DNA from: Eubacteriales bacterium
GTDB lineage: Bacteria; Bacillota; Clostridia; Oscillospirales; Butyricicoccaceae
NCBI GenBank assembly: GCA_030524205.1
Contig: JAUNGZ010000014.1
Coordinates: 17,182 to 59,088 of the forward strand
Direction of reading: 5' to 3'
Length of the DNA stretch: 41,907 bases
In this document: piece by piece, positions 2,932 to 41,907 of the stretch
How positions within the stretch are numbered: position 1 is the first letter of the stretch
Layout: the number at the start of each line of letters is the position of its first letter
Translations under genes and position numbers: made by a program
Notes under the pieces: generated by a model
What the model saw: only the letters and a program-made list of their open reading frames with translations
What the model was told of the DNA's origin: nothing
Databases searched by the model: none

Positions 2932-3194
2932 GGGGTACCCAGTACCCCTTATATACGAAAGGCGGTTCCCAAAGGGAACCGCCTTTCGATATCCCCGGAC
3001 GGCGCCCAAGGCGCGCATACAATAGAAAATAGCGGTTTTGCCGCTATTTTCATCAAAAGTACGAGCTTGGCCCGTGCCTTTGATGCAAACAGAAGGACTC
3101 TCTGAAAATTGTGATTTTCAGAGAGCCCTTCTGCAATAGCCCTTTCCGGCGCAGCCGGAAGGACGTCCCTCGATTGCGAGCGTGGCCGCAATCG
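2932..3194. repeat. Composite hairpin repeat, copy B (fullest copy)
   Basis: The space between two convergent genes is filled by consecutive hairpins. In order they are: GGGGTAC/GTACCCC directly after the CYTH stop; a perfect 15-bp stem (2957-2989) with loop AAA; a linker ending GGCGCGCATA; GAAAATAGCGG/CCGCTATTTTC (3025-3051); an imperfect stem containing CGAGC-TTG-GCCCG; CTCTCTGAAAAT/ATTTTCAGAGAG; linker GCAATAG; CTTTCCGGC/GCCGGAAGG; linker CGTCCCTCGATTG; and CGATTGCG/CGCAATCG (3171-3194). A small AAAACGC/GCGTTTT stem then separates it from the stop of the next gene at 3211. The same linker order occurs in the other copies. Confidence 0.85.
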
Positions 3195-3210
3195 AAAACG
3201 CGCAGCGTTT

Positions 3211-4602
3211 TTATGCGTGCCTGATATCGGTATATTTGGAGATCTCGCGGCTGGTGGTGCACAGGTCGCGCACGGAAAGGCCGTGCACGTCGTCGTGTCC
3301 GGTGATGCGGGCAAAGGTTTTCAGCTCCTCGGTCGAGACGTTCAAGAAATTGGCCACGCGCTGCGCCGCCGCGTCCTCATGCAGGCGCTGCCGCAGCTCG
3401 GGATCCTGCGTGGCCACGCCGACCGGGCACTTGCCCGACCCGCAGATGCGGTACTGCATGCACGCCGCCGCGATCAAAGCCGCCGAGGCGATGGCGACCG
3501 CGTCCGCGCCCATCGCAAGCGCCTTGGCAAAATCCGAGGACACACGCAGGCCGCCCGTGATGACAAGGTCGATGTCCGCGCCGTGCTTGTCCAGATATTT
3601 CCGCGCGCGGTGCAGCGCGTAAACGGTGGGCACGCTGGTCGCGTCGCGCACCAGCTTGGGGCTTGCGCCCGTCGCGCCGCCGCGCCCGTCGAGCGTGACA
3701 AAATCCGGCGCGGCGTACACCACGTATTCCAAATCGTCCTCGATGCGTCCCGCCGCGATCTTTACGCCGATCGGCCGCCCGTCCGAGCGCCGCCGCAGCT
3801 CGTCCACCAGCGCCTTCAAATCCTCCTTGGTGTTCACCTCTGGGAATTTGGACGGGCTGATCACGTCCTGCCCCTCCGGCTTGCCGCGCACCGCCGCGAT
3901 TTCCGCCGTCACCTTGTTGCCCGGCAGATGACCGCCCATGCCCGGCTTGGTGCCCTGCCCGATCTTGATTTCGATCGCGTCGGCGTTTTTTAAATTTTCC
4001 TCGGTCACGCTATACTTGTTGGGCACGTACTCGAATATGTATTTGTACGCGGCTTCCCGCTCGGACGGCAGAATGCCGCCCTCGCCCGAGCACATGGCGG
4101 TTTTCGCTATCGCGCTGCCGCGTGAAAGCGCGGTTTTGGTCTCGGCCGATAAGGCGCCGAACGACATATGCGAAATATAAACCGGGCTTTCCAGCACCAT
4201 CGGCTTTTTCGCATGCTTACCGATTACGGTCTGCGCATTCACCTGCGCGTGCTCGTCGAGCGGCGGCGGGTTGAGCTGTGCGCCCAGCAGCAGGATGTCG
4301 TCCCAGCTTGGCATGGGCATCTGCGTGCCCATGGCCTCGATGATCGGCGCGCCCGACACCGCCATCTGGTGAATCGCGTCCATATAGCGCACGGAAGCGT
4401 CGGTGCGCGCATGCGCGTGCGGATATTCCAGCGTTTGCGGTTCGGCCGCCGGAACGGGCGCGGGCTGTGGCTCCCCCTCGACCAGTACAAAATTGGAAAC
4501 CGGCTGTTCGCAGCGCGGGCACTCGCTCATCGCGGCGAGCGGCTTACCAGCCTTTTCCTCATCGTGGATATAGCCGCAAATCCTGCATCTATAAACTGCC
4601 AT
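3211..4602 (-). CDS. Rubredoxin-like domain fused to a glutamate-synthase FMN domain (GltB central-domain-like)
   Basis: The N-terminal 40 residues form a rubredoxin-like iron knuckle pair (CRICGY near residue 6, CPRC near 28). A short proline-rich linker follows, then a full FMN-binding glutamate synthase domain from about residue 75. The 3Fe-4S cysteines of that family appear as C-X5-C-X4-C in the segment CMQYRICGSGKC near 380, and the flavin-barrel motifs GQGTKPGMGGHLPG and VITGGLRVSSDFAKAL are present. At 463 residues it lacks the N-terminal glutamine amidotransferase domain and C-terminal GXGXG helix domain of complete GltB, so it resembles stand-alone archaeal-type GltS-like proteins. 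Amination with free ammonia or an unrelated flavin reaction is possible. It is a single gene with its own promoter. Confidence 0.88.
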   Translation of the reverse strand: MAVYRCRICGYIHDEEKAGKPLAAMSECPRCEQPVSNFVLVEGEPQPAPVPAAEPQTLEYPHAHARTDASVRYMDAIHQMAVSGAPIIEAMGTQMPMPSWDDILLLGAQLNPPPLDEHAQVNAQTVIGKHAKKPMVLESPVYISHMSFGALSAETKTALSRGSAIAKTAMCSGEGGILPSEREAAYKYIFEYVPNKYSVTEENLKNADAIEIKIGQGTKPGMGGHLPGNKVTAEIAAVRGKPEGQDVISPSKFPEVNTKEDLKALVDELRRRSDGRPIGVKIAAGRIEDDLEYVVYAAPDFVTLDGRGGATGASPKLVRDATSVPTVYALHRARKYLDKHGADIDLVITGGLRVSSDFAKALAMGADAVAIASAALIAAACMQYRICGSGKCPVGVATQDPELRQRLHEDAAAQRVANFLNVSTEELKTFARITGHDDVHGLSVRDLCTTSREISKYTDIRHA

Positions 4603-8787: not shown

Positions 8788-9031
8788 ATATGCCCATATT
8801 TTCCAGCAGCAGCGCCGCAAGCAGCGCCAAGACCACGACGGCCAGCGTGCGCACAATGCGCAGGATGCGTTCCCGCTTCGGGTCGTCGCGCAGCCATTTC
8901 TCCTCGGGCTGCTCGATTTCGGGAATCTGCTCCGTGCCGTCCGGCTCATGGTCGATCAGCGGGATATGGCAGGTATTGCAGGTGGTAAACCCTTCGCGGT
9001 ATTCCGCGCGGCATTTGGGGCACCATGGCAT
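8786..9031 (-). CDS. Small zinc-ribbon membrane protein (81 residues)
   Basis: Cysteines 4, 7, 18 and 21 (MPWCPKC…CNTC) form a zinc ribbon. An acidic linker follows, then a basic stretch (DDPKRERILRI) and a C-terminal membrane helix (about residues 60-78). This tail-anchored shape puts the ribbon in the cytoplasm. Its first 15 residues are nearly identical to those of the preceding gene (9047-9577), so the pair arose by duplication, but it lacks that gene's central DUF2007 domain. It is the last gene of the mnmM operon, starting 15 nt after its paralogue. Function unknown. Confidence 0.75.
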   Translation of the reverse strand: MPWCPKCRAEYREGFTTCNTCHIPLIDHEPDGTEQIPEIEQPEEKWLRDDPKRERILRIVRTLAVVVLALLAALLLENMGI

Positions 9032-9046
9032 AGCACAGTCCCTCCC

Positions 9047-9577
9047 CTACAGCCGCGTCGAAACAAAATACAGCAGAACGAGCGCAAGCGCGATCACCCC
9101 GGCCACAACCGGCAGCAGCTTGAACGAAGCGTTGTCCTCCGCCGGCCGCTCGGGCGTCTGCATCGCCTGCTCCTCCGACAGACGGGCCAGCTCGTCCTCG
9201 TCCATCGGCGCTTGCTCCAAATCGTTGTTCAGCTCGTCGATCAACTGACGGGCGCGGGCCGTCTGGCTCGCATCGACCAAAATTTCCACGCCGAAGCGCG
9301 CGTCCGCCCCGCTGTACGCCTGAATCTGCCGGAACGCCGCCGGGCGGTCCAGCGTGACGATATCGTGCTCCTGCAGCATATCGCAGAGCATCTCAGCCTC
9401 CAGCCGGTTTTTCGCCGTGTAAACCGCGATGGGCTTTTCCATACCGTCCGGCAGGACCAAGGCCGATCGCTCTTCGGGCGCGTCCTCGCCCAGCTCGTCC
9501 ACCAACGGCACATGGCATTCGCTGCATTCGGCAAAGCCTTCTCTGTATTCCGCACGGCATTTGGGGCACCATGGCAT
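9047..9577 (-). CDS. Zinc-ribbon, DUF2007 and membrane-anchor protein
   Basis: The 176-residue product has an N-terminal zinc ribbon (Cys4, Cys7, Cys18, Cys21). The middle matches DUF2007, a small ferredoxin-like fold suspected of signal transduction: IAVYTAKNRLEAEMLCDML near residue 50 and VEILVDASQTARARQLIDEL near 98. A C-terminal membrane helix lies near residues 155-172. I chose the ATG at 9577 over the upstream frame start at 9631 because the paralogue at 9031 begins with the same MPWCPKC and because a GGGAG site, inside the last codons of mnmM, sits at the right distance. Function unknown. Confidence 0.8.
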   Translation of the reverse strand: MPWCPKCRAEYREGFAECSECHVPLVDELGEDAPEERSALVLPDGMEKPIAVYTAKNRLEAEMLCDMLQEHDIVTLDRPAAFRQIQAYSGADARFGVEILVDASQTARARQLIDELNNDLEQAPMDEDELARLSEEQAMQTPERPAEDNASFKLLPVVAGVIALALVLLYFVSTRL

Positions 9578-9582
9578 ATGCT

Positions 9583-10200: not shown

Positions 10201-10401
10201 GAAAACCGCCGCTTTGCGGCGGTTTTCGAGGTTTCCGCGCCTCGTTCCGCCCGCAGGCGCAATTTCATAGAAAGCGGCCGTGCCGCTTTCCTCAAAAGCG
10301 GAAGGCCGTCGGAATCAAAATTCCGGCGGCCTTCCGGCGCAATAGCTGTTTCAGGCTGCGCCTGAAACAGCGTTCCTTGATTGAAAGCGTGCTTTCAATC
10401 G
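10201..10401. repeat. Composite hairpin repeat, copy C
   Basis: The copy begins with a terminator-like stem GAAAACCGCCGC/GCGGCGGTTTTC (10201-10227). It continues with linker ATAGAAAG in GAAAGCGG/CCGCTTTC, a long stem CGGAAGGCCG/CGGCCTTCCG with inner GGAAT-CAAA-ATTCC, linker GCAATAG, CTGTTTCAGGC/GCCTGAAACAG, linker CGTTCCTTGATTG and terminal GATTGAAAG/CTTTCAATC. The terminal hairpin ends 1 nt before the stop codon of the minus-strand DUF819 gene. The stem sequences differ from copies A and B, but the linkers are shared. Confidence 0.82.
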
Positions 10402-10402
10402 A

Positions 10403-11566
10403 CTACGCAAAAAATTTCATAATATTCGCCACAATAATGCCGCCCCAGGTGCCGATAATATAGCCCAGCAATGCCATCAGCACGCCGACGGACACCAGTG
10501 CGGGCGAGTAGGACGCGGCCAAAATCGGCGCGGAGGCCGTGCCGCCGATATTGGCGAGCGAGGCCACGCCGCAGGTGAACATATCCAATTTGAATATTTT
10601 AGCCAGCACGACCAGAATAATGCCGTGAATCGCCAGAATCATGAAGCCGGAGATGATCCAGACCGGCGCGTTGGTCATTTCGAGCAGGCTCGCGCGGGAA
10701 GCGAGCAGCGCGATAACGATGTACAGGAACACATTGGACAGCTCCGCCGAACCCGCGATCTTGCCGATCGGCGTAACCGCCCCGATCAGCGCCACCACCG
10801 TGACGAGCAGCACCGTCCATGTCGCCTTATCCAGCCACGGCGCAACGCCGTAGATGGCCGTGCCGATGTTCTGCGCGACCGCGGACACCAGCAGCGCGCC
10901 GCCGACCAGAAACAGCAGGCCGGCAAAAGTAATATGGTTTTCATTCGACAGCTGCTCATTCTCTAACCGCGCGCAGACCTCGTCGAGCGTGTCGGTGGAT
11001 GCCTTGGTCCATTTGTTGAACTGCGGCGCAAACGAGATCGCCCACAGCAGGAACATGACCCAGACCGAATAGTCGATCGAGTCGATGACAAGGGCGTAGC
11101 CCATGTCTCCCGCCCCGATATCCAGCGCCTGCTGTACCGCGACCATATTGCCCGAGCCGCCCATCCAGCTGCCGCACAGCGCGCCGAGCGCCTTCCAAGC
11201 GTCCGCGCCGAGCTGCGAGTGCATGATCGCGTAAGTGGCGATAAAGCCAATGGCGATCGAAACGCTTGCCGCGAAGAAGCCGCCCAGCATGCGCGGGCCG
11301 AGCTTCAGCACCTTGCGGATATCGCAGCGCAGCAGCATCAGGCACAGCATCGCATACAGAATGTTGTTTTTCATTACGCTGTACGCGGGCGCGGTGGCCT
11401 CCATATCCCACGCGCCGACGGTGCACAGCACCATCGTCAGCAGATACAGCAGCACGACCGGCGGAACGTACTTGAAAAACTTCCATTTGGTCAGCTTTTC
11501 CGCGCCGACCAGCACAGCGGCCAAAAATACCAATACCGCAACGTAAGTAAAGCCGTTTGTGATCAT
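10403..11566 (-). CDS. DUF819 family membrane protein (YjcL-like putative transporter)
   Basis: The 387 residues are mostly hydrophobic, with about ten predicted membrane helices and a glycine-rich segment GALCGSWMGGSGNMVAVQ near residue 133 that is characteristic of DUF819. A second conserved repeat-like segment, GVASLANIGGTASAPILAA, lies near 335, so each half carries a glycine-rich re-entrant-type motif, as in secondary transporters. The substrate is unknown. It is a single gene with its own promoter, divergent from pepV. The start has GAGGGATG upstream. Its TAG stop is 1 nt from repeat copy C. Confidence 0.85.
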   Translation of the reverse strand: MITNGFTYVAVLVFLAAVLVGAEKLTKWKFFKYVPPVVLLYLLTMVLCTVGAWDMEATAPAYSVMKNNILYAMLCLMLLRCDIRKVLKLGPRMLGGFFAASVSIAIGFIATYAIMHSQLGADAWKALGALCGSWMGGSGNMVAVQQALDIGAGDMGYALVIDSIDYSVWVMFLLWAISFAPQFNKWTKASTDTLDEVCARLENEQLSNENHITFAGLLFLVGGALLVSAVAQNIGTAIYGVAPWLDKATWTVLLVTVVALIGAVTPIGKIAGSAELSNVFLYIVIALLASRASLLEMTNAPVWIISGFMILAIHGIILVVLAKIFKLDMFTCGVASLANIGGTASAPILAASYSPALVSVGVLMALLGYIIGTWGGIIVANIMKFFA

Positions 11567-13137: not shown

Positions 13138-13304
13138 TAGGGGGTATCCAATACCCCCTATCTACGGGAAGAGGTTCCCAAGGAAACCTCCTCCCGATAC
13201 CCCCGGACGCGGCCCAAGGCCGCTGGGGTCGGGGTATTAAAAGTGCGGGCGGAGCTCGCACTTTTGATGGAAAATGCAGCGGGCTGCATTTTCCTATTCT
13301 ATGC

Positions 13305-13380
13305 GCGCTGCGGCGCGGGGGAAAAGGCTCGCCGCCCGAGAGGCGGCTGCCTTGGGGATGGGCTTTGCAAGCAAAGCCTG
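13305..13380 (+). repeat. 76-bp direct repeat, unit 1
   Basis: This unit matches 13412-13487 at about 69 of 76 positions. It contains two hairpins, GCCGCC/GGCGGC and GGCTTTGC/GCAAAGCC. The start GCGCTGCGGCGCGGGG also appears at the right end of copy E (near 14797-14815). Confidence 0.85.
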
Positions 13381-13411
13381 TTTCCGGAAGCCGCGCACGG
13401 ACGTGCGCGGG

Positions 13412-13487
13412 GCGCTGCGGCGCGGGGAAAAAGGCCCGCCGTCTGAGGGGCGGCTGCCTTGGGGATGGGCTTTGCGAGCAAAGCCTT
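13412..13487 (+). repeat. 76-bp direct repeat, unit 2
   Basis: This is the second copy of the 76-bp unit, 31 nt after the first. Differences in the first stem leave it pairable through a G.U-type pair, and the second stem GGCTTTGC/GCAAAGCC keeps its arms with a changed loop. It ends 32 nt before the epimerase start. Confidence 0.85.
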
Positions 13488-13519
13488 ATCCGAATACAAC
13501 ATACAAGGAGCGTGACAGC

Positions 13520-14611
13520 ATGAAAATCACAAAGATAAGGCTTGGCAGGATTTCGGTGCCGCTGCGCGTGCCGTTTAAAACGGCCGTGCGCTCGGTTTCG
13601 TCCGTCGAGGACGTGATCGTCGAGATCCACACCGACACGGGCGCGGTCGGCTACGGCGAAGCGCCCCCGACCGGCGCGGTCACGGGCGATACGGCGGGCG
13701 CGATCATCGGCGCGGTGCAGGATCACATCGCCCCGACCATCCTCGGCCGCGAGGTGGACGATTTTGAAAACCTGATGCTGGCCGTGCAGGGCTGCATCCT
13801 GAAAAACACCAGCGCCAAGGCCGCGGTCGATATGGCGCTGTGGGATCTCTACGGCCAGCTTTACGGCATCCCCGTCTACAAGCTGCTGGGCGGCAGCCGG
13901 AACAAGATCGTCACCGATATCACCATCAGCGTGAACGACCCTGAGGAGATGGCGCGCGACGCGCGCAACGCGATCGACCGCGGCTACAACTGCCTGAAAT
14001 GCAAGGTCGGCAAGGACGCGCCGCTCGACCTTTTGCGGCTTGAAGCCATCCGCAAGGAGGTCGGGCCGGACGTTCGCATCCGCATCGACGCTAATCAGGG
14101 TTGGAAGCCGAAAGAAGCCGTGCGCATCCTCGACAAAATGGCCGAGCGCGGGCTGGATATCGAATTTGTCGAACAGCCCGTGCACCAGCACGACCTCATT
14201 GGCCTGAAATACGTGACTGACAACGTCTCCATCCCCGTTTTGGCGGACGAGAGCGTGCAGGGCCCGTCGGACGCGCTGACCATCATGCAGATGCGCGCGG
14301 CCGATCTGGTCAACATCAAGCTGATGAAGTGCGGCGGCCTGTACAACGCGCTCAAGATCGCGTCCGCCGCCGAGGTATACGGCGTCGAATGCATGATCGG
14401 CTGTATGCTGGAGGCCAAGATCTCGGTCAACGCGGCCATCCATCTGGCCTGCGCCAAGCAGATCATCACCAAAGTGGACCTCGACGGCCCGGTGCTCTGT
14501 CTCGAGGACCCGATCCGCGGCGGCGCGGTATTCGACGAGAAAAACATTACCGTGTCGGACGAGCCGGGCCTCGGCGTCAAGGGCATCGAAAAAATTACCT
14601 ATCTGGACTGA
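13520..14611 (+). CDS. Dipeptide epimerase (L-Ala-D/L-Glu epimerase-like, enolase superfamily)
   Basis: The 363-residue product has every catalytic residue of the Bacillus subtilis L-Ala-D/L-Glu epimerase type: the KxK pair Lys160/Lys162 (LKCKVGK), magnesium ligands Asp190 (RIDANQ), Glu218 (EFVEQP) and Asp243 (LADES), and the opposite base Lys267 (NIKLMK). These enzymes epimerise the Glu of cell-wall-derived L-Ala-D-Glu so that ordinary peptidases can use it. The dipeptidase gene upstream and the amidase downstream fit that role; exact dipeptide specificity is not readable. I chose the ATG at 13520 for its AAGGAG (13505-13510). The frame is open back to 13274, but that part is repeat sequence. 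Confidence 0.9.
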   Translation: MKITKIRLGRISVPLRVPFKTAVRSVSSVEDVIVEIHTDTGAVGYGEAPPTGAVTGDTAGAIIGAVQDHIAPTILGREVDDFENLMLAVQGCILKNTSAKAAVDMALWDLYGQLYGIPVYKLLGGSRNKIVTDITISVNDPEEMARDARNAIDRGYNCLKCKVGKDAPLDLLRLEAIRKEVGPDVRIRIDANQGWKPKEAVRILDKMAERGLDIEFVEQPVHQHDLIGLKYVTDNVSIPVLADESVQGPSDALTIMQMRAADLVNIKLMKCGGLYNALKIASAAEVYGVECMIGCMLEAKISVNAAIHLACAKQIITKVDLDGPVLCLEDPIRGGAVFDEKNITVSDEPGLGVKGIEKITYLD

Positions 14612-14613
14612 GT

Positions 14614-14822
14614 TTCGATCGCGACCACGCTCGCGATCGAGGGACGGCGTTCCGGCTTTTGGCCGGAAACGCCTATTGCAGAAGAGCCCGCTGAAAATTC
14701 TGATTTTCAGCGGGCTCTTCTGTTTGTATCAAAAGACCGGGCAAAGCTCGGCCTTTTGATGAAAAAGGCGGCGTTGTCGCCATTTTCTATTTTATTCGCG
14801 CTGCGGCGCGGGGCTTTTTCGA
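14614..14822. repeat. Composite hairpin repeat, copy E (inverted relative to copy B)
   Basis: Read left to right it is copy B reversed. The terminal hairpin TCGATCGCGA/TCGCGATCGA (14615-14640) lies 3 nt after the epimerase stop. Linker GAGGGACG, stem GCGTTCCGG/CCGGAAACGC, linker CTATTGC, and a long stem AGAAGAGCCCGCTGAAAAT/ATTTTCAGCGGGCTCTTCT follow. Then come ATCAAAAG…CGGGC-AAA-GCTCG…CTTTTGAT, the GAAAAAGGCG/CGCCATTTTC stem, and TATTCGCGCTGCGGCGCGGGG. It fills most of the space to the convergent amidase gene. Confidence 0.85.
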
Positions 14823-16659: not shown

Positions 16660-16862
16660 CCTCCGCGCCGCCGCGCGCATATAAAAAGAAACCGGACGGC
16701 TGTGCCGTCCGGTTTCATGAAAAAGCCGAGCTTTGCCCGGTTTTTTCATACAAAGTCAAAAAGGCGCCCGAATCAAAATTCGGGCGCCTTTTTGACGCAA
16801 TAGGTGGTTCAGACGCAGTCTGAACTGCCGTCCCTCGATTGGAACTGTACGTTCCAATCGAA
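16660..16862. repeat. Composite hairpin repeat, copy F
   Basis: The order is as in copy B: GCGCGCATA linker, GAAACCGGACGGC/GCCGTCCGGTTTC, ATGAAAAAGCCGAGC-TTT-GCCCGGTTTTTTCAT, a 19-bp stem starting GTCAAAAAGGCGCC with loop CAAA, GCAATAG, GGTTCAGAC/GTCTGAAC, CGTCCCTCGATTG, and terminal CGATTGGAAC/GTTCCAATCG (16836-16860). The terminal hairpin ends 4 nt before the rubrerythrin stop. Every stem differs in sequence from copies A-E while remaining paired. Confidence 0.85.
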
Positions 16863-16864
16863 AC

Positions 16865-17404
16865 TCAGTAATTTTCCGCCTTCACCTGAAAATACGCCTG
16901 CGGATGCGCGCAAACCGGGCAAACGTCCGGCGCCTGCTTGCCAACGACAATGTGGCCGCAGTTCGAGCACTGCCAAACCGCGTCGCCGTCCTTGGAGAAC
17001 ACCAGCTTATTCTCCACATTGGAGAGCAGCTTCAGGTAACGCGCCTCATGCTCCTTCTCGATCTCGGCAACCTTCTCGAACAGGAACGCGATATCCTCAA
17101 AGCCTTCCTCATGCGCTTCCTTCGCGAAGGTGGCGTACATGTCGGTCCACTCGTAGTTCTCGCCCTCGGCCGCGGCCTTCAGGTTGGTCGCGGTGTCGTC
17201 GATTCCGCCGTTGAGCAGTTTGAACCAAATCTTCGCATGCTCCTTCTCATTGTTGGCGGTTTCCTCAAAAATGCTGGCGATCTGGACGTAACCATCCTTC
17301 TTCGCCTTCGATGCAAAATACGTGTACTTGTTGCGCGCCATTGATTCGCCCGCGAACGCGGTCTGGAGGTTGGCTTCCGTCTTGCTGCCCTTTAAATTTG
17401 CCAT
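16865..17404 (-). CDS. rbr: Rubrerythrin
   Basis: It reduces hydrogen peroxide at a non-haem diiron site in anaerobes. The 179-residue protein has the ferritin-like four-helix domain with the expected glutamate/ExxH motifs: [15 protein letters not shown] near residue 47 and [14 protein letters not shown] near 112. A C-terminal rubredoxin domain carries CSNCGH near 147 and [11 protein letters not shown] near 163 to hold the electron-donor iron. An open frame runs much further upstream, but the ATG at 17404 gives the normal family N-terminus ([10 protein letters not shown]) behind a GAGGAG site. It follows perR in one operon, so PerR probably represses it. Confidence 0.95.
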
Positions 17405-17468
17405 AATAACATTCTCCTCACATTTCACAATATTTTTAAGGCGGCGCGTCTGCCGCCGGGGGTACAGT

Positions 17469-17852
17469 TTAGCTGCCGCCGCACGAAGGGCAAACGCCCT
17501 CAAACAGGATATCGTACCGCTGCACCGCAACGCCAGAGGCGTCCTCGATCTGCTCAACAAGATTATCAATATGCGGCATATGCACATCAAACACCGCGCC
17601 GCAGCCGGTACAGCGGACATGATAATGCTCTTCTGTATTAAAATCGAAGCGATCCGCGCCGTTGGGAACGGGCACGCGGCGGATTTCCCCCTGCGTAGCC
17701 AACTGGTTGAGGTTGCGGTAAACCGTCGCCTTGCTGATGGAAGGATGCTCCGCCGCAACCGCCGCGTATACGGTATCGGCCGTCGGATGGTCGTGCATGC
17801 GCAATACCGCCTGCAAAACAATCTGGCGCTGAACCGTGTTTCTGGTCTGCAT
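17469..17852 (-). CDS. perR: Fur-family repressor, PerR-like
   Basis: The 127-residue protein has the winged-helix of Fur proteins ([11 protein letters not shown] near residue 23, [14 protein letters not shown] near 38). It also has the two CxxC structural zinc pairs, CTGCG near 81 and CPSCGG at the C-terminus, and a regulatory metal segment [11 protein letters not shown] near 68 with the Asp/His pattern of PerR. Location directly upstream of rubrerythrin supports peroxide sensing rather than iron control. Its own promoter overlaps a TAATTA-rich inverted repeat, so autoregulation is likely. Assignment as PerR rather than Zur or Fur rests on context and the DF-HYH pattern. Confidence 0.85.
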
Positions 17853-17867
17853 AATGTCACCTGCTTT

Positions 17868-29635: not shown

Positions 29636-30202
29636 TCAAAGGCTTAAAAAGTTTTGTAGGATGACGCCGCCCACCGGCGTCAAAATGGACTCGGGATGGA
29701 ACTGCACGCCGTAAACCGGCTTTTCCTTGTGCCGCACGGCCATGATCTCGCCGATCTCGTCGCGGGCGATGACCGCGATGCAGTCGGGCAGGGTTTCGGG
29801 CGCGGCCACCAAAGAGTGGTAGCGCGCCGCGCTGATCTTGTGCGGCAGGCCGCGGAACAGCGGGTCGGTTTCGTCCACTTCGACCATGCTCTGCTTGCCG
29901 TGCATCAGGCGCTTTGCGTGCTCAATTCTCGCACCGAACGCCTCGCAGACCGCCTGATGGCCGAGGCACACGCCCAGAATGGGGATAACGCCGCCGAGCG
30001 CTTTCACCGCCTGCTCGCACACGCCCGCGTCCCTCGGGTAACCCGGCCCAGGCGAAAGCAGGAGGTGCGACGGGTTCAGCCCCTGTATTTCACCGACCGT
30101 GACCGCGTCGTTGCGCACGACCCGGATGTCCGGCTCGATCGCCGCCGCCTGCTGGTACAGGTTGTAGGAAAAGGAATCGTAATTGTCGATTAACAGTACC
30201 AT
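29636..30202 (-). CDS. trpG: Anthranilate synthase glutamine amidotransferase component
   Basis: It supplies ammonia from glutamine to TrpE. The 188-residue class I amidotransferase has the nucleophile cysteine in GVCLGHQAVCEAFG near residue 78, LLLSPGPGYP near 50 and the His-Glu pair in VQFHPESI near 170. The start overlaps the trpE stop (TGATG), so it is coupled to TrpE. Clostridial TrpG may also serve para-aminobenzoate synthesis. Confidence 0.96.
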   Translation of the reverse strand: MVLLIDNYDSFSYNLYQQAAAIEPDIRVVRNDAVTVGEIQGLNPSHLLLSPGPGYPRDAGVCEQAVKALGGVIPILGVCLGHQAVCEAFGARIEHAKRLMHGKQSMVEVDETDPLFRGLPHKISAARYHSLVAAPETLPDCIAVIARDEIGEIMAVRHKEKPVYGVQFHPESILTPVGGVILQNFLSL

Positions 30203-31659
30203 CAGCCATCCACCTCCGAAGCGCGTTCGATCGCCGCAATGACCGCGCGCGCCTTGTTCGCGCTTTCCATATATTCGTTATGCGGGACGGAATCGGCCAC
30301 GATGCCGCCGCCCGCCTGCACGGTGACCGTGCCGCCCTTCTTCGCCGCCATGCGGATGGCGATGCAGGTATCCATATTGCCCGCGAGGTCCAGATAGCCC
30401 AGCGCGCCGCCGTACACGCCGCGCGGCGCGGGCTCCAGCTCCTCGATGATTTCGCACGCGCGGATTTTGGGCGCGCCCGACAGCGTGCCCGCGGGCAGCA
30501 CCGCCTCGATGGCCGAGAGGGCGTCGCGGCCGTCCGCGAGCTCGCCCTCGACCTGCGAGCAGATGTGCATGATCTTGGAGTAGCGGTGGATCATCAGGTA
30601 CTCGGTCACGTCGACCGAGCCGATCTTGGACACGCGCCCCAGATCGTTCCGCCCCAGATCGACCAGCATGTTGTGCTCGGACAGCTCCTTTTCGTCGCGC
30701 AGCAGCTCCTCCTCGAGCGCCTTGTCCTCGGCCGGCGTCGCGCCGCGCGGACGCGAGCCCGCGACCGGAAAGGTCGTCAGCCGCCCGTTTTGCAGACGCA
30801 CCAGCGTTTCGGGCGAGGAGCACATGATCTCGTCCCCGTCGATCGACAGGAACACCATGTAGGGCGAGGGGTTGGTCGTGCGCAGCACGCGGTAGGCGGA
30901 AATGAGGCTGTCCCCGTAAGGCGAGGTGAACTGCCGCGACTGCACAGCCTGAAAGATATCGCCGTCGAAGATATGCTTCCGTGTTTTCTCGACGATGCCG
31001 GCGTACTCCTGCTCGCTCACGCTGCAGGTGAACCGCGGCGCGGCGGGACGGCCGAGCGGCGGCAGCGGGCTTTGGTCGGCCGCAAGCGCGGCCATCGCCT
31101 CCAGCTCTGCGCAGGCCTTGCCGTAATTCTCCATCACGCGGTCGGTTGCGATGTTGACGATCAGCACGAGCTTCTGCCGCAGGTGGTCAAAGGCGATCAC
31201 CTTGTCGAACAGCAGCAGGTCGAAATCGTCCCAGCCGTCGCGCCCGATGCGCAGCGTCGGCTCGGCGTAGCCGAGCATCGCGTAAGCGAAGTAGCCGACG
31301 AAGCCGCCGGTAAACGGCGGCAGCCCCTCGATGCGCGGCGCGCGGCGCGCATCGAGCAGCCCGCGCAAAACGTCCAGCGGCTTCTCCGTCTTTACCGTGC
31401 GGTTTTCCGCGCCGGTCAGCGTCACCACGCCGCTTTTGCAGCGGGCGCGCAGGATGGGATCAAAGCCCAAGAACGAATAGCGCGCCCACTTCTCGCCGCC
31501 CTCGACGCTCTCAAGCAGGAAAAAACGCTTTGCTTTGGCTTGCAGCCGCCGCAGCAGCAGAATGGGGGTGGTCACGTCCGCGTATACCTCGCGGCAGACC
31601 GGAATGGTCGAATACTCGCCCGCGAGCTTTAAAATTTCGTCACAGCTTGGTGTAATCAT
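30202..31659 (-). CDS. trpE: Anthranilate synthase component I
   Basis: It converts chorismate to anthranilate with ammonia from TrpG. The 485-residue protein has the tryptophan-binding feedback motif in RFFLLESVEGGEKWARYSF near residue 44. Chorismate-binding segments are DIFQAVQSRQF near 247, PVAGSRPRG near 320, LVDLGRNDLGRVS near 357 and GTLSGAPKIRACEII near 410. I chose the ATG at 31659 because GGAGGG lies 7 nt upstream; the frame runs into the leader terminator further out. It is the first gene of the operon, downstream of a tryptophan T-box, so it is subject to both leader control and end-product inhibition. Confidence 0.96.
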   Translation of the reverse strand: MITPSCDEILKLAGEYSTIPVCREVYADVTTPILLLRRLQAKAKRFFLLESVEGGEKWARYSFLGFDPILRARCKSGVVTLTGAENRTVKTEKPLDVLRGLLDARRAPRIEGLPPFTGGFVGYFAYAMLGYAEPTLRIGRDGWDDFDLLLFDKVIAFDHLRQKLVLIVNIATDRVMENYGKACAELEAMAALAADQSPLPPLGRPAAPRFTCSVSEQEYAGIVEKTRKHIFDGDIFQAVQSRQFTSPYGDSLISAYRVLRTTNPSPYMVFLSIDGDEIMCSSPETLVRLQNGRLTTFPVAGSRPRGATPAEDKALEEELLRDEKELSEHNMLVDLGRNDLGRVSKIGSVDVTEYLMIHRYSKIMHICSQVEGELADGRDALSAIEAVLPAGTLSGAPKIRACEIIEELEPAPRGVYGGALGYLDLAGNMDTCIAIRMAAKKGGTVTVQAGGGIVADSVPHNEYMESANKARAVIAAIERASEVDG

Positions 31660-31683
31660 ATGTAAACCCTCCGTTTTGGCAAT

Positions 31684-31731
31684 AAAAAAAGCCTTCGTCC
31701 TCACGATGCACATGCATCATGGGACAAAAGC
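31684..31731 (-). terminator. T-box leader terminator (attenuator) of the trp operon
   Basis: On the minus strand GCTTTTGTCC pairs with GGACGAAGGC (including G.U pairs) around an inner ATGATGCA/TGCATCGT stem and is followed by seven T. The 5' part competes with the T-box antiterminator just upstream. Confidence 0.88.
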
Positions 31732-41319: not shown

Positions 41320-41451
41320 TCCTCGCGCCGCAGCGCGCATATCATAGAAAATGGCGGCCACGCCGCTATTTTCATAAAAAGCGCCGGAGAATTGTGCCCA
41401 TAGGGCGCGATTCATAGGCGGAACTTCGATCGCGAGCGTGGTCGCGATCGA
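41320..41451. repeat. Composite hairpin repeat, copy G (shortened)
   Basis: The linker GCGCCGCAGCGCGCATATCATAG leads to GAAAATGGCGGC/GCCGCTATTTTC as in copy B. The middle is degenerate: the GCAATAG and CGTCCCTC linkers are missing. The terminal hairpin TCGATCGCGA/TCGCGATCGA (41426-41451) is identical to that of copy E and ends 2 nt before the stop of the minus-strand CAP-domain gene. Confidence 0.78.
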
Positions 41452-41453
41452 AA

Positions 41454-41907
41454 TCAGTTAGTAAACATCTGCGTCCAGTACGGCGTGCCGTTAATGACAG
41501 TGTACCCCACGCCGATGGTCGTAAAGTCCGCCTTCAGGATGTTCGCGCGGTGACCCGCGGAGTTCATCCAGGCCGTCATGACCGCCTGCGGGGTCGACTG
41601 GCCGTAGGCGATGTTCTCGCCCGCGCCCCGGTAGGAAACGCCCGCTTCCGTCAGCGCGGTGAAGCACGACGCGCCGTTCGGCCGGGTGTGCGAGAAGGAC
41701 TGCGCCTGTTCCTTTGCCCGCACCTGCGCCGCCTGCTGCACCTTGCTGTCCACCTTCAGGGCGGACAGACCGGCCTTCGCGCGCTCCGCGTTGACAAGCT
41801 GCACCACCTGCGCCGCAAAATTGCCCTGCGCTGCGCCGCCGTTGTTATCCGGGGTTTCCTCCGGCTTGGTCTCCGGCTTAAACTCGGGCTTAACCACCGG
41901 GCAGCCG
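41454..41907 (-). CDS. CAP (SCP)-domain secreted protein, 5' end outside the window
   Basis: The frame is open to the window edge, so the N-terminus (probably a signal peptide and part of the linker) is missing. A proline- and glutamate-rich linker (KPEFKPETKPEETP) is followed by a bacterial CAP domain: VVQLVNAERAKAGLSALKVD, then FSHTRPNGASCFTALTEAG, GAGENIAYG, VMTAWMNSAGHRANIL and IGVGYTV…YWTQMFTN. This is the YkwD-like group found in clostridial secreted proteins; some bind or act on wall material, but the activity is not settled. The stop codon lies 2 nt from repeat copy G. Confidence 0.9.
   Translation of the reverse strand, partial: GCPVVKPEFKPETKPEETPDNNGGAAQGNFAAQVVQLVNAERAKAGLSALKVDSKVQQAAQVRAKEQAQSFSHTRPNGASCFTALTEAGVSYRGAGENIAYGQSTPQAVMTAWMNSAGHRANILKADFTTIGVGYTVINGTPYWTQMFTN

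Follow-up and report, generated by a model that had tools for sequence, protein, structure and literature searches.

The window (the whole 41,907-nt stretch of DNA that was analysed, with a G+C content of 61%) carries copies of a composite multi-hairpin element between its genes, seven of which, named A to G, are considered here. The full layout is about 200 nt long and consists of six hairpins joined by short linkers, H1-CATAnnATAG-H2-AT-H3-ATACAAA-H4-GCAATAG-H5-CGTCCC-H6, in which H1 is CGCGCCGCAGCGCG and H6 is TCGATTG...CAATCGA when read in the H1-to-H6 orientation; a prime marks a hairpin read on the strand of the gene that abuts H6. The copies and the genes next to them are as follows.

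2932-3195, + strand: copy A, whole
2932-3000, + strand: copy A, extra 5' module of two hairpins (about 2926-2953 and about 2956-2988), which starts at the stop codon of a CYTH gene (2338-2931) and also opens copy F
3001-3024, + strand: copy A, H1 and linker GCATACAATA
3025-3051, + strand: copy A, H2, terminator-like on the - strand
3052-3089, + strand: copy A, H3 and linker GCAAA (consensus ATACAAA)
3090-3133, + strand: copy A, H4, with a stem of 20 bp
3134-3169, + strand: copy A, linker CAATAG, H5 (about 3141-3162) and linker CGTCCC
3170-3195, + strand: copy A, H6; the end of a - strand gene (3211-4602, glutamate synthase domain) lies 15 nt further on
10201-10402, + strand: copy B, H1-H2, H3 missing, H4, GCAATAG, H5, CGTTCC and H6, which abuts the stop of a - strand gene (10403-11566, DUF819)
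14614-14822, - strand: copy C, whole, with H6' at 14615-14640, then H5', H4' at 14679-14722, the H3' core at 14737-14751, the H2' core at 14767-14781 and H1' at 14795-14812; H6 lies 3 nt past the stop (14611) of a + strand epimerase gene (13502-14611)
16660-16862, + strand: copy D, H1-H6, with H2' (16688-16716) and H4' (16755-16796) terminator-like on the - strand; the end of H6 is 3 nt from the stop of a - strand rubrerythrin gene (16865-17860)
1-86, + strand: copy E, the 3' part only (3' arm of H4, GCAATAG, H5, CGTCCC, H6), cut by the window start; the 5' part precedes the window in the contig, and the H4 contains a run of N
13138-13487: copy F, a 5' module as in copy A, an inverted H3-H2-H1 (H2' at 13269-13294) and two 75-nt direct repeats
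41320-41451, + strand: copy G, type II, with H1, H2, core CGCCGGAGAATTGTGCCCATAGGGCGCGATTCATAGGCGG and H6 (41426-41451), beside which a - strand gene (41454-41897) ends

A preliminary description of this DNA had reported the same linker words in the same order at A, B, D and, reversed, at C, and had taken the other three for partial or rearranged copies. Both points hold: A to D carry the same modules in the same order, with the element on the - strand at C, although B lacks H3 and the linker words differ by 1-2 bases among copies (copy D, for example, has AAAAAGAAA in place of ATAGAAA), while E is a 3' part, F combines an inverted H1-H2-H3 with other hairpins and G represents a second subtype. 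Conservation of individual letters is found mainly in the linkers, the apex of H3 and the base of H6. The two direct repeats of copy F (13305-13379 and 13412-13486), 92% alike and rich in hairpins, lie beside its inverted H1-H2-H3. Another pair of direct repeats in the window, at 8951-9032 and 9497-9578, is 82 nt long, 78% alike and 546 nt apart, and is perhaps a duplicated protein segment.

The assembly that contains the window comprises 2,212,955 bases in 47 contigs, with a completeness of 81.94. By inference this gut bacterium belongs to the genus Agathobaculum, as suggested by a window protein whose seven named relatives at 90-93% identity comprise six from Agathobaculum and one from Butyricicoccus faecihominis. 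A covariance model built from H4-H5-H6 of window copies A, B, C and D (R1) finds 55 places in this genome at E ≤ 1e-6, and recovers copies E and G at 64.5 and 43.2 bits, neither of which was used in building it. A second model (R2), covering H3-H6 and based on 25 chosen sequences from the same genome and its relatives, finds 119 places at E ≤ 1e-3, with 99 non-overlapping places and 89 at E ≤ 2e-9. At E ≤ 1e-5, R2 matches in all 25 genus genomes, with 2 to 101 places each (2 to 67 in the 24 genomes other than our own), counts that take in overlapping and opposite-strand matches. The covariance-model search proposed in the preliminary description places the family well beyond the window; its view of the element as multicopy stands, at about 100 places here rather than the hundreds per genome that it had projected. 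Five contigs of the assembly (C1, C20, C30, C32 and C38 of G000) start within about 550 bases of an element and, given also the run of N in copy E, strong hairpins may break assemblies and account for some of the contig breaks in these assemblies, so that the copy numbers may be underestimates.

Further afield, 295 genomes drawn from the order include 17 with an R2 match at E ≤ 1e-4, of which seven belong to the genus, two (G142 and G036, the latter with a single match) to other genera of the family and eight lie elsewhere. A genome of a sister genus in the family (G142) has five matches at 42-51 bits, and one of its loci (L235), laid out as H1-H3-H4-H5-H6, is on its sequence the only convincing layout outside the genus among the loci read. 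The eight genomes outside the family score 28.6-40.2 bits; four of them match at H4 positions only and the one that was read (G122, L236) does not have the element layout, so that the eight were not counted as carriers.

The central part of the element is interchangeable. Besides type I, own copies include a type II with the core CCGnCGGAGAA...GGCGG (copy G in the window), and a type III has a core near AAAAAGTTTCGC...GGAACTTTTT followed by an H5-like hairpin; both keep the same H1-H2-H3 and H6 ends as type I, and the end of one gene carries type I in one species and type II in another (L034, L228). Smaller variants occur as well. An alternative 5' stretch like GCGCCGTGTCGGCGCGACnGTCCCCCGTCCCC lies upstream of H1 at L017, L019, L020, L026, L029, L032, L034, L040 and L044, where other copies show AAAAAGTCCCCGCGCC or similar. 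The H3 apex takes one of two alternative forms in many copies, CGAGCTTTGCCCG and GACATGCGC, each present in several species, and the latter is found with one change at L235 in the other genus. At L007, L038 and L045 the H4 loop is apparently inverted (TTCG/TGCG vs. CGAA/CGCA), and the outer linkers keep their direction.

Across 25 copies, 95.5% of cells are paired vs. 71.1% after shuffling, changes on both sides occur at 41 of 51 pairs (28.6 in shuffles) and covariation reaches 0.649 vs. 0.188, with slid structures giving 54.3% paired cells at most. Chance is excluded for the fold, because none of 500 shuffles reaches the observed value on any of five measures. A larger own set of 60 aligned matches (55 distinct rows), which was fitted to the model and hence leans towards it, gives 92.7% paired cells, 38 of 38 pairs and a covariation of 0.645 vs. 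0.183. The shared fold suspected from the window copies is therefore real, and is not limited to them. In H4 of the 60-match set there are 306 two-sided, 18 one-sided and 43 unpaired cells (27 of them at the outermost pair), sums that count copies and not events. The stem of H4 is mostly 17-20 bp long, and the H4-window hairpins of 54 own copies contain 918 Watson-Crick, 24 G-T, 8 A-C and 3 other pairs (at L054 and L056 the hairpin found in this window is H5).

The fold says little about which strand is used. The H1-to-H6 strand is the stabler one in 37 of 87 rows (with up to two places counted twice), so that folding energy has no strand preference. Among distinct hairpins from 71 copies, wobbles in H2-H4 favour the H1-to-H6 strand, opposite to that of the abutting gene (78 G-T vs. 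35 A-C, the latter without 24 A-C at one fixed H3 position), and those in H5-H6 lean slightly the other way (10 G-T, 16 A-C); neither energies nor wobble counts were retained for strand assignment. The element may work in both directions, since the H2-H4 wobbles favour the other strand and the energies show no preference. The lack of an energetic preference, the stems that are about 93% Watson-Crick with few wobbles and the H4 arms that change together would also suit a DNA-level element, in which a nucleoid or topology protein binds cruciforms or hairpins of single-stranded DNA, as in BIMEs, or in which templated repair keeps the arms matched. We regard this as very improbable, as it does not fit the strand asymmetry of loops and tails and of the orientation to genes that is described below. 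The least probable explanation is that the H1-to-H6 strand is an independent small RNA ending at H6. The G-T excess in H2-H4 and the A-rich linkers of that strand could be read in this way, as could a T-rich stretch past H6 (at least 4 T in 8 in 34 of 86 rows), but the stretch overlaps the antisense of stop codons, the element occupies about 100 dispersed places, and sigma-70-type scans of copies A, B, C, D and G find no site within 200 nt before H1 on that strand, making such an RNA extremely unlikely.

Positions relative to genes were measured for 54 own places (R1, E ≤ 1e-9; about half of the 99 and essentially type I) and for 32 distinct copies of other species, chiefly those with the highest scores. 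Genes were called with a score of codon usage learned from 15 window genes. The stop of an opposite-strand gene lies within 80 nt of H6 in 44 of the own and 23 of the other-species copies, and within 8 nt in 35 (at 1-7 nt) and 22, respectively. Copies without such a stop within 80 nt (10 own, 9 other-species) include contig ends and copies before a start codon. In nine own copies the stop is 11-51 nt from H6; four of these have an additional GCCCGnAGGGCG-H6-like unit, and their called stop falls within the second H6 (L024, L040, L044) or 4 nt past it (L034). The preliminary description had the elements filling intergenic spaces, which is right for a dispersed intergenic family but not in the sense of random filling, as most placeable copies stand at gene 3' ends.

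As a control, limited to two genes, we compared the ends of gdhA and rubrerythrin across the genus genomes. At the 12 loci with the element the first hairpin begins 3-8 nt past the stop; of the 30 loci without a strong match, 26 have a hairpin at 2-63 nt (median 26.5) and four have none. Own-copy distances differ from those of the 26 element-free ends with p = 7e-7. The shortest control distances (2, 5 and 5 nt) come from L262 and L265, where the hairpin is H6-like (the L265 contig stops after 72 nt), and from L278, where it is ordinary. Closeness to the stop is thus not exclusive to the element, because the element-free gdhA end at L278 has its hairpin at 5 nt.

Five pairs of neighbouring elements in the own genome are no more than 450 nt apart, and every one of them is arranged H1-to-H1; in three, both genes end within 4 nt of the match boundary, each at its own H6, and the remaining two comprise one with only the left gene called and one with a badly scoring left frame. 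A convergent gene was called on the H1 side of 28 own copies, 22 of which leave at least 25 nt before H1. Half of these gaps (11 of 22) contain a T-tailed hairpin, in some cases a second element and in others an ordinary terminator (L011, L025).

The available text of PMC12306157 reports that REPs within 15 nt of a stop codon stall ribosomes and affect translation, which makes an effect of H6' on translation a live rival, given that H6' of the 35 own copies noted above lies within this range. The element could then be a brake on translation or mRNA stability, in which H6' behind the stop slows ribosomes or blocks exonucleases and termination is secondary; the sequence that follows H6' on the mRNA strand, GGGACG and not a T-rich tail, is consistent with this. 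Taken as the main function, however, a brake seems improbable. Ten abutting genes named by Pfam encode glutamate dehydrogenase, a class II tRNA synthetase, an NlpA lipoprotein, DUF4914, formate-tetrahydrofolate ligase, a trypsin-PDZ (HtrA-like) protease, RNase J, ATP synthase epsilon, an ABC ATPase and a phosphopantetheine (acyl carrier) protein, a diverse and often housekeeping set in which a general brake is hard to understand, and the features of H4' would be left unexplained.

These features differ between the strands. In 51 own copies (the 54 minus three without a clear H4), a UNCG loop caps the hairpin 24 times when it is read on the abutting gene's strand and three times on the other strand; a tail in which 4 or more of 8 letters are T is present 40 times and once, respectively. 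The corresponding numbers for 28 distinct type I copies of other species are 5 vs. 0 for the loop and 18 vs. 0 for the tail, so that the UNCG loop, carried by only five, is a weaker feature outside the own genome. The general hallmark of an intrinsic terminator is a G+C-rich stem with a T-rich tail on the transcribed strand. Of the 54 own copies, 48 have at least one such site on the strand of the abutting gene, but 40 have one on the opposite strand as well; two or more are present in 33 and 18, respectively. As 17 copies from other species give nearly equal counts (17 vs. 15 for at least one site, 11 vs. 10 for at least two), the terminator scan separates the strands in own copies only. Within the window, the terminator calls that score best at C and D fall on H4' as read in the direction of the abutting gene, and H3' and H2' of both copies and H1' of C are called as well; single calls are weak evidence, since the scan returns 48 sites in 20 kb vs. 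24 expected. The H4' tail, UUUGUAU with a mean of 4.0 T in 8, is weaker than the T5-T6 tails that many ordinary terminators have. Where orthologous genes lack the element, many end in an ordinary terminator, which sometimes shares the apex GGAATTTCGATTCC or GGAATTTTGATTCC (L248, L279). The H4 at the rubrerythrin end of G023 resembles the ordinary terminator of G012 and G022, and the idea that H4 is the unchanged local terminator of each site is suggestive, but was set aside because the cases are too few and the terminators of the genus resemble one another.

At the gdhA end a strong match (at least 111 bits) is present in eight of 22 loci. Two of the 22 do not contain the gene end, which in those species is found, together with the element, on a different contig. 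Four of 22 loci have the element at the rubrerythrin end (window copy D). For the epimerase end (copy C), 10 loci include downstream sequence, and the element is present only in that of the own genome; a further locus, L190, stops at the gene. Copy F is absent from all seven relatives shown. Judged by this distribution, some sites look old and others lineage-specific. Stems at shared sites differ between species and retain their pairing; orthologous empty sites are too diverged for the junctions to be placed, where a MITE, BOX or RUP element would show terminal inverted repeats and a target-site duplication. The best pair among own copies is 86% alike and the median is 63% (49 copies, 1176 pairs), so that there is no sign of recent copying or spread. 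The rubrerythrin frame itself (16865-17860, - strand) encodes 331 aa; in 14 of 22 genus loci the match starts at residue 131-148, and the seven loci of other species whose match begins close to the N-terminus contain stops that are read through. Its first ~140 codons may be a separate or fused gene.

Some of these data would fit a non-autonomous mobile repeat (MITE-, RUP- or BOX-like) that sits at gene ends because it is least harmful there, with the hairpins as transposase signals and any effect on the host incidental: the sites are dispersed and lineage-specific, as for copy C, the number of matches varies widely (2 to 101) among the genus genomes, and constant ends flank exchangeable central cassettes. 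Yet near-identical copies are absent, several sites are common to different species, and the orientation with H6 near the stop seems tighter than tolerance alone explains. In addition, the 82%-complete own genome has no match to the Y1 transposase (PF01797), the only transposase family searched (5 of 14 controls positive), which may speak against a REP/RAYT origin, and one copy searched in each of the phage and plasmid collections gave no match to support an origin from either. A mobile repeat is therefore unlikely, if less so than the other alternatives, and we infer that the element spread through recombination between copies and not by active transposition.

On balance, we favour the explanation that each copy is the composite terminator and 3'-UTR end of the gene whose stop abuts H6. 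This is the simplest reading because of the preferred orientation, the anchoring to stop codons, the outward-facing pairs and the T-tailed, often UNCG-capped H4'. On the mRNA of the abutting gene, the stop codon would be followed by H6', H5', H4', H3', H2' and H1'. H4', with its long stem, its frequent UNCG loop and the UUUGUAU that follows, would be the intrinsic terminator, and a polymerase that reads through would reach H3' and H2', hairpins of the A-tract/stem/T-tract kind that could also stop transcription from the opposite side. H6' and H5' would be retained in the message as a paired 3' UTR starting right behind the stop codon, where they would be expected to obstruct 3' exonucleases and other factors and may also hold back the ribosome as it terminates. 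By analogy, the element would work like a tandem, partly two-way terminator with a sealed 3' UTR. The preliminary description had missed the preferred orientation and position, the one-strand terminator character of H4, the interchangeable cassettes I, II and III and the sites shared between species.

The usual picture of a bacterial terminator is one hairpin that arose locally. In this family, copies dispersed over about 100 places of one genome join a terminator-like hairpin to a fixed array of hairpins, which has a preferred orientation and in most cases begins at the stop codon. We tentatively suggest, with less confidence than for the 3'-end reading itself, that this could be a distinct class of gene-end module: a stop-anchored terminator enclosed by fixed hairpins and linkers, with three or more exchangeable central cassettes, present at scores of gene ends in one genus and in a diverged form in a sister genus. 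Such a module would replace the ordinary terminator gene by gene, with its arms changing in concert, by templated repair or swapping, and with pairing kept while the sequence turns over completely. The copies are natural replicates, in which one architecture is built from different stems and the same gene occurs with and without the element in sister species. They could be used to test what effect the structure of the 3' UTR at a stop codon has on termination, translation and mRNA decay, and by what means the two arms of inverted repeats stay matched while their sequence changes.

The preliminary description had considered the family unlike known ones, and this agrees with both searches that were made. 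An Rfam scan of the window has no family at gathering score on the element copies (matches to copy C are far below it), which rules out a known RNA family at that level, and a literature search for the element family in the genus and family, with subscription papers outside its scope, found no description. The only gathering-score match in the window is a T-box (RF00230, 31717-31972, - strand, 96.9 bits), which precedes a - strand reading frame (30202-31713). Systematic surveys of stem-loop families do exist (PMC2267715, from the text available).

Several known repeats offer partial likenesses, as far as the available texts describe them. SPRITE is a dispersed repeat with an 18-bp stem and a U-rich tract, resembling an over-long terminator and overrepresented between convergent genes (PMC3049150). 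By this description H4' resembles it in stem length and T content; SPRITE, however, is one hairpin in AT-rich DNA, whereas H4' stands among six hairpins with fixed linkers in a G+C-rich window. BOX elements, as outlined in the same source, are modular composite repeats with constant end modules around variable inner ones, and our element shares this modularity, but its modules are separate hairpins with fixed linkers and one of its ends is tied to stop codons. REP palindromes, too, lie at gene ends, in many cases no more than 20 bp from the 3' end, and also between convergent genes (PMC3733652), and the element even has a CGTC word before H6; REPs are nevertheless units of 20-40 bp with short stems. 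The CGTC super-family described there has a stem of 8-9 bp with A-T in the first two pairs, a loop of 4-5 and mostly a CCA tail, whereas the stem of H6 is mostly 9-11 bp, its first pair (T-A) fits and its second (C-G) does not, and AAAT or similar follows in place of CCA. The GTAG super-family is marked by a dedicated RAYT (Y1) transposase in the genome, for which PF01797 gives no matches in the 82%-complete assembly. Finally, H4' shares its stem size and at times its apex with ordinary terminators of the genus, which stand alone, mostly 10-63 nt past the stop and in many cases with longer T tails. The element may work like REP, BOX or SPRITE repeats, a likeness of function that need not mean membership in any of these families.
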